A stretch of DNA of 64,000 nt, taken from contig JAQGDQ010000299.1 in NCBI GenBank assembly GCA_030141605.1, positions 137,837-201,836 on the forward strand, written 5' to 3'. Source of the DNA: Tubiluchus corallicola (lineage: Eukaryota; Priapulida; Priapulimorpha; Priapulimorphida; Tubiluchidae). Positions 45,115-62,685 of this stretch are shown here, piece by piece (position 1 is the stretch's first letter; each line of letters begins with the position of its first letter). Both the position numbers and the translations under genes were made by a program. The notes beneath the pieces were generated by a model. That model made no database searches, was not told the DNA's origin, and saw only the letters and a program-made list of their open reading frames with translations.

Positions 45115-48100
45115 CTGGTGCTCCAGATGGCTTGGGTGTTGTGGAACACGTAGATGTGATGCAGGAAAATATCACATTTGCTGTAACGGTGGGTTCTCAG
45201 TTTAGGATTATGGTTTTTAGCATGACTCACTTAACAGCTTGTAGAATTTTTTCAATTCAATTCAATTCAACTCAATTTTATTTTCTCAATAGCAGTTAAA
45301 ATTCGTCATAATTATTTTTACATTTCATTGCAGCTGAGAAGGAGCAGCGAAAGACCTATTGGTCACTTGGTCAGCTGCCCCTTATTAAAAATACAAGTTT
45401 ACTCACAGGCTCATGACATCTTTTAGGTGTTTGTGTATATATAAAAGGCAAAAGCAACAAAAATCTACTCAAAGCTAAAATGCAATTCCACTCTGAATAA
45501 AAGGAAGTTTTCACAATCAATGCAAAACGGAATTTAACTCATAGCAAAAAATTATATCAAACAAAATGAAACTCAAAGCGAAAATTTTATCAAGCAGAAT
45601 TGTATTGTCAGTCTTGGTCTAGCCTGATTTGAGGTCAGACAGATTTGTTGCTGAAGCCAAATTTTGTCGATAATTGTACTTTTGGTTCAGGTGCATTTCG
45701 TAAGGACTTATTAAGTTTCGTAATTTCGTAAACGTTCGGTAATTTTCCAGAATATTTTTCCGAGGTTTTAGTAGTATTGAACGAGTTTGCCTTTTCTTTT
45801 CTCCTAGAATACCTAAACGTTAAACACCGTGAAAAATCTTGGCTAAAATAGCTAAAAAAAATCCTGCCATTTATATCATCATCATCATCATCATCAGGTG
45901 TCTCTGTTATATAAATGCAACATAGCACCACTAATAATTTGATGCCATGTTCCTCGGTCTGTTACCACATCTGTTGCTACAAGATTCTTAAAGAAAACTT
46001 ACACTGTCAAACAGTTTGGTGTACAGTGTGGGAAATGTGATCATTTTTTATTAAATGCAAAAATGTATAATCTAACTCTCGTTAAATTTTTGCTTTTCTC
46101 TCATTCATTGTTGATACGGGTAGGTCCCCAATAGACATAGACATAGACATAGACATTTTATTTTTCTCCAATTTGTGCCACAAATTTTCGTTGTACAAAA
46201 AAAAATAACTTTGTCTGTGGAGATGGGGCGAGGAAAGACCGTAGGTCATCTACTCACTCACCCCTTATAATTTAATGTTGATGACAGAAAAAGAATTAAT
46301 GACACAGGATGCAAATAAACTAACAAAATAAAGCAAACATAAGCAGAATTATAAAAGCAAACATAACAACAATAGCATAAGTGAAAAAAAGAATAAACAA
46401 ACAGTGGTAAAAATAAAATGATGATGAAATTAATCACAATGCCGTAATTTATGTAGATTTCCCATATTAAACGAATTTACACGGAATATTAGATTCACAA
46501 TTTTTACTGAATAATATTGAGTAGTAGTGTAAAGGAAAAAAATTACTCTAATCAACTTATCTGTCTAGTAACGAGTTTTTGTAATTTTTAGTGATGGCAT
46601 TTCCCAAAATGAGAAAGAAAGTATTACTTATTGAAAATTAAATTGCCGTGTCTGAAACCGTATTGCATGCATCAGGTTTTTACTGTGTTGGACAGGGTTA
46701 AATTATGGTGGGTCAGTCTCAGATTTCAAGACATTTACTTGTCTTTACGAGTCTTGCTATAGAAACATTTTGCAGATTCACTTTTCGGAACGACCGCCAG
46801 GGGGCATTGTTTATATCCTTTACAACGTTGTCTGGCATGCAAAAACAAGCCAGTAACTCTTTTGTTTTCTTTGTTTAGGATGCTTACGAGCAGTCGTTAA
46901 GCGTAAACAGTGCACCTGAACTTGGCATCATTTGTAGGTTTTTATCACAATTCAGAAAATCTGAGATTTTGTGTTGAAATTGTTCCCTGGCATGCAATCA
47001 TTGATTTTATTTTGTTTTGCAGGAAACGGATGGAATTTTTTTGCAAACTGTCAGAGCCAAAGCGATAGCGGGTCTCTTCACATTTCTTGCATTGTTTGTA
47101 ACTTGTCATCAAGTAAGTTGCCATGGTAACAAATGAAGTTCCAAGTATCCTAAGATCCAATCAAGTGCAGACAGTGTAAAGAGCACGCTGTTTTGCAGGG
47201 GTTGCTGTGGGTTGTGTGATAACCCTTTGATGTGCGAATGACTGAATAGCCAACTGGCTACCATGTGGTGTAGAAGTTAAGCAATGCCAAGCCTGGTCAG
47301 CAAATGGATGGATGACTGCAAAGTTCATTATCTTGTTTGGGTGGTTTCATTGTTTTTACTGGGTCTAGGGTTTCACCTCAATGAGTTTTGGATGTGCTCA
47401 AATCCGAACATGGCCCAAAGATGCTGCTGGTGCCAGTCCTTTATCTTAGCTTGGAAGATTTGTATTGATAGTGAGCTAGAGTCCAGTCCTACCTCAACCA
47501 TTCGCATTAAGTAGCTGTGTAATTGAATGCTGGATTCAATTTTGCAGTGTGCCAGACTCAGTAAAAGATTTTGTTGAATTTTGACACTTAAAACGAATTG
47601 AATGGAATTTATTGACTAACTTGGATAAGCATATTAATATATACGATCACAATCAAAGTTGGAAAGAGTTAGTCCCCAATTAAAAACAGTATCGCTAACG
47701 ATGAGTCTAAATGGTCACACACATAAAAACACACTCATGTCAGCTAGTTAAAAATATAAAATGTATGACAAATATATCATTCAATTCAAATGAACAACTA
47801 AATTTTTAAGACTTATTTGTAGACAACTGTAGGACCAAACGATATGAACAGTTTGCTAAATTTTTGAATGAATAAAGAAACTAGTATGAAATAAGGTGCA
47901 AATATCAGGTGTAGTAGTAGTGTGGTCTAATATCTGCCAAGGTATTTTCTCAAGAAGATTAAGATAACGACTTAGATCAATCATCTTATGTGCTAAATGA
48001 GTTAATTTATTACTGTGTATCGTATATAAAGTCAAGTGTGTGCTTGTGGATTTTCCGCTCATATCTTGAGGAAGACATGTTGTTCAAGCAATTTTTTACT

Positions 48101-62685: not shown

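Follow-up and report, generated by a model that had tools for sequence, protein, structure and literature searches.

A covarying two-stem hairpin in the 3' tails of several families of APE-type LINEs, and its probable role as an RNA signal

A stem-loop followed by short repeats is already established as a LINE tail signal, while the site-specific LINEs SART1 and R2 have other structures. UnaL2 of the eel (L2 clade) carries in its 3'UTR a stem-loop whose stem is interrupted by an unpaired nucleotide or internal loop; short tandem repeats come after it, and this tail is needed for retrotransposition of the element (PMC4176376; PMC5135761). The unpaired stem nucleotide of UnaL2 is required and altered stem sequences are reported to have lowered retrotransposition (PMC4176376), which means that stems may not be free everywhere. 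Zebrafish ZfL2-1 and ZfL2-2, also of the L2 clade, encode an EN-RT protein in which a PW motif lies between the endonuclease (EN) and reverse transcriptase (RT); the stems of their tails are exchangeable, the loop is specific, and the segment intervening between EN and RT binds RNA (PMC4176376). Enzymes of SART1 (R1 clade) and R2 likewise require a 3' RNA structure of their own element, and the mollusc Vhc SINE and CR1 tails provide invertebrate 3' stem-loops that are common to different elements, although predicted only (PMC5135761). The same paper, from 2016, states that there is no experimental evidence for a role of LINE-tail stem-loops in invertebrates, though insect SART1 and R2 are cited (PMC5135761).

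Here, a two-stem hairpin that occurs at five sites in a window of 64,000 nucleotides (contig C2241, positions 137837-201836) was examined, with genome-wide searches covering the 343.5-Mb assembly, which is probably eukaryotic judging from its size and content, although a search for cox1 found none. The hairpin very probably acts as an RNA signal in the 3' tails of a single lineage of LINEs with an APE-type endonuclease, and on comparison with the systems above the LINE protein would recognise it for priming. A literature search did not find a description of this hairpin, which is no proof of absence. Rfam at the gathering score gave the hairpin no match in the window, and among eight LINE loci searched with E values up to 10 there were three sub-threshold matches, none of them to the UnaL2 LINE 3' element. 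One of the three, to the family mir-3718, covered the hairpin of L091 on the opposite strand and scored 22 bits, the cut-off being 78.

Table 1. LINE 3' ends and their two-stem hairpins in the window. Arms are given as 5' arm/3' arm.
Feature	Position	Strand	Description
Copy A	45251..45599	-	LINE 3' end: UTR, hairpin, AATAAA, (TTGAA)n; partner LINE L087
Hairpin A	45335..45387	- (element strand minus)	Outer AAGGGGCAGC/GCTGCTCCTT, inner GACC/GGTC
Copy B	46130..46602	-	LINE-like 3' end, (ATGTCT)n tail
Hairpin B	46218..46270	-	Outer GGGGTGAG/CTCGCCCC, inner GACC/GGTC
Copy C	54071..54495	+	5'-truncated LINE 3' end, (ACTT)n tail; RT-bearing parent copy L137
Hairpin C	54272..54325	+	Outer AGGGTGGC/GCCACCCT, inner AACT/AGTT
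Copy D tail	54690..54823	-	Hairpin, ATAAATAAA, (ATT)n; partner LINE L028 with EN and RT
Hairpin D	54771..54823	-	Outer AAAGGGCAGC/GCTGCCCTTT, inner GATC/GGTC
Copy E	61671..62281	-	5'-truncated LINE 3' end, (AATTG)n; RT-bearing parent copy L135
Hairpin E	61797..61850	-	Outer AAAGGATAGC/GCTATCCTTT, inner GACT/AGTC
Copy F	8672..8830	+	L102-type LINE 3' end, cut within hairpin; ATAAATAAA-like sequence and TACT tail

All five hairpins were present where the earlier note had placed them, and in the orientation of the element the order at every site is 3'UTR, hairpin, AATAAA-like box and microsatellite. The box was found 52-106 nt, and the microsatellite, which differs between copies as had been noted, 64-111 nt past hairpins A-E. 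Each hairpin has an outer stem of 8-10 pairs, after which come one unpaired nucleotide and a GA/UC step that does not vary; an asymmetric internal loop separates this step from an inner stem of 4 bp, which is closed by a small apical loop. When compared with dinucleotide shuffles, the five sequences gave fold z values of -3.1 to -4.9, and 2, 0, 0, 0 and 1 of 200 shuffles each folded equally well for A, B, C, D and E, respectively. The arms originally listed need correction for one G-U pair in the outer stem of A and for the outer arms of B and the inner arms of D, which read as in Table 1. The 4-bp inner stem appears in the minimum-energy folds of A and C, but is replaced by another inner pairing in those of B, D and E.

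Genome-wide, the hairpin is commoner than chance would allow: the exact motif GCTGACN{9,17}TCTTTCGC had 677 matches versus 2 for the reversed pattern, and the motif GANNNGATGACCN{3,4}GGTCTTTC had 493 versus 0, the two counts overlapping and both being inflated by redundancy of the assembly. Thirteen contigs (C2, C14, C457, C628, C1781, C1850, C2066, C2159, C2185, C2200, C2228, C2254 and C2271) gave the same scores for two elements approximately 80 kb apart; the assembly therefore seems to hold one segment repeatedly, such that copy counts are inflated.

The five copies in the window are LINE 3' ends. Copy A is 96-97% identical to L005 and L006 across about 180 nt, and 40 of 299 candidates for near-identical copies elsewhere were scored; in the six relatives that were fetched, the shared sequence stops 5' at varying points, from about 180 to 566 nt, which is a mark of LINE insertion. 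For copy B the longest shared stretch began at 46155 and took in 448 nt of the query, and a search for an RT-bearing partner found none. Other copies of the copy E family extend further 5'. The supposed sixth copy at 8.7 kb, which had been described as an eroded hairpin, proved to be something else: over 163 nt it matches the tail of LINE L102 with 96% identity and, since it begins within the 5' internal loop, is a 5'-truncated LINE. In all 22 tails listed, a loose AATAAA-like match was found within 120 nt past the hairpin. By script, 18 of these tails, with L013 doubtful, end 3' in short tandem repeats, which were not detected in L022, L018 (T runs only), L030 and L037.

Other repeat arrangements were observed close to these tails. 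Tandem arrays of the hairpin precede a normal LINE tail in L114 (G000:C649:8600-9950; nine units of 75 bp) and in L041 (G000:C105:20082-23636; four units of 76 bp), where the unit consists of the hairpin plus about 31 nt and, in L114, is flanked on both sides by ATCTAT. By eye, L022 has tandem repeats of roughly 85-100 bp in the 3'UTR upstream of its hairpin (around 1460-1900), and copies of family A match one another at shifted offsets in the 3'UTR region. In L034 (G000:C36:493130-496610) a C-type tail is directly succeeded by part of its own element in inverted orientation, as if two copies had been inserted tail to tail or one copy had been rearranged.

The autonomous, RT-bearing partner that had been anticipated was identified, in that LINEs with an APE-type endonuclease and RT have the hairpin in their 3'UTR, with partners available for copies A, C, D and E. 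When 20 hairpin loci were taken with 3.2 kb of upstream sequence, the RT of the hairpin lineage was present in two, L028 and L040. The order in L028 is EN, RVT_1, about 370 nt and hairpin D, with Exo_endo_phos (PF03372, 4.6e-10) and RVT_1 (PF00078, 5e-35) both upstream of the hairpin; the two domains lie in different frames, indicating that this copy is broken. L112, of the same family, also matched PF03372 (2.5e-5), five further D-family copies run from the RT end to the hairpin with 96-97% identity, and additional loci match in two pieces with the order kept. For the C and E parents, the join between RT and hairpin was made by coordinates in single copies: among four copies walked in the 5' direction, L137 (C) and L135 (E) had the lineage RT upstream, in the direction of the element, and L134 and L136 did not. 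L087, the partner of copy A, was found via its RT and has an A-type hairpin and tail. Within the LINE RNA, the hairpin lies about 90-830 nt past the end of the RT span as used here and about 50-120 nt ahead of the AATAAA-like box and the 3-6-nt repeat that ends the element. RT identity between hairpin families is mostly 43-61% (L018/L013 aside), and L1 and R2 proteins are among the solved chains nearest to the RT (E about 1e-10).

The association was examined also from the opposite side, with a covariance model (R1) derived from the five hairpins of the window and a set of 19 LINE copies for which RT similarity was the sole criterion of choice, of which 18 were testable, L089 ending at a contig end. 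R1 matched all 18 (33-64 bits, E at most 1.4e-6), in each case downstream of the RT and in the same orientation; in L099 a second hairpin lies beyond the first, and R1 also gave weak shadows of 12-14 bits on the opposite strand. A covariance model R2 scored 50-72 bits on the RT-chosen copies, part of its seeds being from these same loci. A hairpin scan requiring eight outer and four inner pairs found 17 of the 18 copies, missing L087, and its background was seven matches in 229,683 bases of Markov-resampled sequence. The hairpin is common to several LINE families, as the earlier note had inferred.

More distant hairpins are present in L022, the RT query (AGGTGAGTGT/ACACTCACCT around GACC/GGTC), and in L018/L013 (GGAGGAGG/CCTCCTCC, with one mismatch in L013, and GACTCGA in the loop). 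Since R1 reported no match in L022 and scored weakly in L018 (15.0 bits, E 0.084) and L013 (11.6 bits, E 0.67), these hairpins rest on position and layout. Among the other RT types sampled (L007, L009, L014, L015, L023, L024 and L026), none has a hairpin in its own tail. Searching 20 RT loci with R1 at E values up to 5 gave, besides L018 and L013, weak matches in L024 (17.1 bits) and L010 (12.9 bits, partial). L024 was rejected as a LINE partner, the match lying past its own tail, which ends about 790 nt earlier, and the partial match in L010 looks like chance. In the viral contigs searched, a hairpin match was absent and RT gave one weak match.

The stems change in pairs, as had been claimed from the window copies. 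An alignment of 12 rows was used, comprising the five window hairpins and seven that were RT-chosen, with zero RT-chosen loci excluded for want of a hairpin. It contained 20 two-sided cells versus a shuffle mean of 6.8, a value attained in 0/500 shuffles, and slid structures gave at most seven. Two-sided change affected 9 of the 14 pairs, and 90.5% of cells pair, a share that leans to the structure because the RT-chosen hairpins were located by a pair-requiring scan and the window hairpins by the earlier note. With 16 families, some of them motif-found, 9 of 14 pairs were again two-sided, with 24 cells versus 8.9 in shuffles (0/500). The count of further pair types was less decisive, being reached by 22/500 shuffles for the 12 rows and by 55/500 for the 16 families. 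The eight innermost outer pairs were formed in 112/112 cells across 14 families, versus a mean of 89 on dealing of the 3' arms, and 0/20,000 deals reached 112, although the arms were typed as read off the hairpins and the pairing percentage thus leans to the structure. Without L022 and L018, all 96 of 96 cells pair, which again 0/20,000 deals reach.

A tree-based covariation test similar to R-scape was conducted on 72 rows with 60 null alignments; this set omits nine identical rows (L083 and L085 among them), L022 with its copies L082 and L084, L018, L013 and the old copy in L024, and L086 is likewise absent from it. Four outer pairs ranked top of 1,326, with two-set E values of 0.0011-0.013, but against all 1,326 pairs the same four had E values of 0.10, 0.43, 0.53 and 1.2, none being below 0.05. 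Since many of the 72 rows were motif-fetched, and the motifs fix the two loop-nearest pairs, these are given no weight; the search motifs do not constrain pairs 7-53 (rank 1) and 12-48 (rank 4). Tree tests on subsets were weak per pair (best two-set E 0.033, and 0.028 for the second subset minus two inner pairs). Decay of the CpG type in one arm had been named as an explanation that would count against the hairpin, as had an absence of covariation. Paired changes were in excess, and changes occur on both arms and include C-G to G-C swaps, which CpG decay cannot give; decay confined to one arm is refuted.

Support is good for the outer stem and only moderate for the inner one. Dealing of the inner-stem arms in free register gave 2/20,000, the 5' arm is identical in 10 of 17 families, and the inner pairs were non-significant in the tree-based test of 72 rows. 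The inner stem was absent from the RNAalifold prediction for the 16 families, and an alternative inner pairing is possible in 75% of cells, compared with 87.5% for the proposed one. RNAalifold adds the GA/UC step after one unpaired nucleotide, which as a set of invariant pairs is no evidence of pairing.

Information content was 1.86 bits on the 3' side of the internal loop and 2.0 bits at GA, versus 0.41 for the apical loop and 0.36 for the 5' flank, in rows that include motif-fetched hairpins; GA and TTC are present in 12/12 rows of the window and RT-chosen set. This differs from UnaL2, in which the GGAUA apical loop is thought to be recognised, whereas here the apical loop varies as much as the 5' flank and the internal loop is conserved. 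Judged from these sequences, recognition by the RT would proceed through the internal loop. Furthermore, the repeats of UnaL2 are (TGTAA)n, whereas those described here differ by family, and ZfL2-1 and ZfL2-2 each require their own loop, whereas one internal-loop sequence is common to many families here. The motif KPW(I/L)T lies between EN and RT in 8/8 rows covering the region. Of the cTBR residues of ZfL2-2 (P, W, E and W at 324, 325, 341 and 344), P and W are retained in eight of nine rows, L113 falling short of the motif; E and W appear not to be kept, positions +17 and +20 by ungapped count being Y/F and H/C. The mollusc Vhc SINE and CR1 tails differ in that no SINE was found in the present case. 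Taken as an analogy, the drifting paired stems, fixed loop letters and KPW(I/L)T fit the L2 mechanism in the main, and this new hairpin may represent a variant in the recognition site.

By that analogy, binding of the RT for target-primed reverse transcription is the hairpin's likely role. The LINE protein would grip the hairpin, perhaps with the segment between endonuclease and RT that known LINEs use, and the grip would put the tail repeat at the nicked target, where reverse transcription would begin. Such a start at the tail would cause copies to keep the 3' end and lose the 5' end. The sequence of the stems could drift while pairing holds, with the letters of the internal loop staying fixed.

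Instead of providing a landing site for the RT, the hairpin could feasibly help the LINE transcript to form its 3' end, to remain stable or to be exported, in keeping with its position ahead of the AATAAA-like box in every tail listed. However, the known LINE tails with a stem-loop and short repeats are RT-recognised (PMC4176376; PMC5135761), and the microsatellite lies past the box and ends the element, indicating that templates extend beyond the box; a role of this kind is considered unlikely. Much less probable still is ordinary shared ancestry, whereby an inherited palindrome would remain paired without selection and the differences would represent decay. The families are indeed related by RT, and some columns change on a single side, as G-U pairs, but such ancestry sits badly with the excess of two-sided cells over shuffles and slid structures, with swaps of C-G to G-C and G-C to A-U, and with the complete formation of the eight innermost outer pairs across 14 families.

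The short copies might alternatively be SINEs that borrow a LINE tail, a reading suggested by C and E, whose query matches mostly stopped at one 5' point and which are without a long ORF; C moreover has only 39-73 nt around the hairpin in common with most fetched LINE tails, and E the tail repeat only. Against this, shared sequence continued past the 5' stop in 10/10 E and 8/9 C copies fetched, with varying ends, such that the stop point is a property of the query copy, and RT lies upstream in L135 and L137. A tRNA and a B box were looked for and neither was found. C and E were therefore rejected as SINEs, and little credence is given to this explanation. Three traits of stringent-type LINEs are present, namely APE endonuclease together with RT in one element, a 3'UTR stem-loop in which the asymmetric loop lies a 4-bp stem away from the apical loop, and short repeats at the 3' end; a SINE partner with the same tail was not found among the candidates C and E. 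A LINE tail signal read by the RT is the preferred interpretation of the hairpin.

Elsewhere in the window, a 957-aa open frame with six PDZ domains lies at 26610-29483 on the minus strand and resembles scaffold proteins of the NHERF kind. A full match to a 5S rRNA gene (96.9 bits) lies at 49175-49293, also on the minus strand. Long coding-like tandem repeats (PGQTHQHAQDKPTSM and others) occupy 38700-43700, and GC content is 0.51, with strong skew, at 40-44 kb, compared with 0.34-0.39 elsewhere.

It is possible, if rather doubtful, that the internal loop constitutes a shared code, with recognition in a single LINE lineage directed at the asymmetric internal loop (the unpaired nucleotide, GA/UC and a TNGAT-like strand facing TTTC) and not at the apical loop. 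Such reading would allow about eleven RT-bearing families, mostly with 40-57% RT divergence, to share a tail signal that is interchangeable between them, even as their stems, apical loops and repeats drift. If this were true, such LINEs could copy one another's RNA, and the tandem hairpin arrays of L114 and L041 could be RNAs competing for the enzyme. Stem-loops have been shown to act as LINE tail signals in a few species; here, in one genome, many families have the same fold with paired changes and are linked to their own RTs. These families offer a natural mutation series indicating which nucleotides matter, and the covariance model can be used on unannotated genomes to locate the 3' ends of LINEs and to give their orientation. 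They also make it possible to ask whether one LINE can copy the RNA of a different one.
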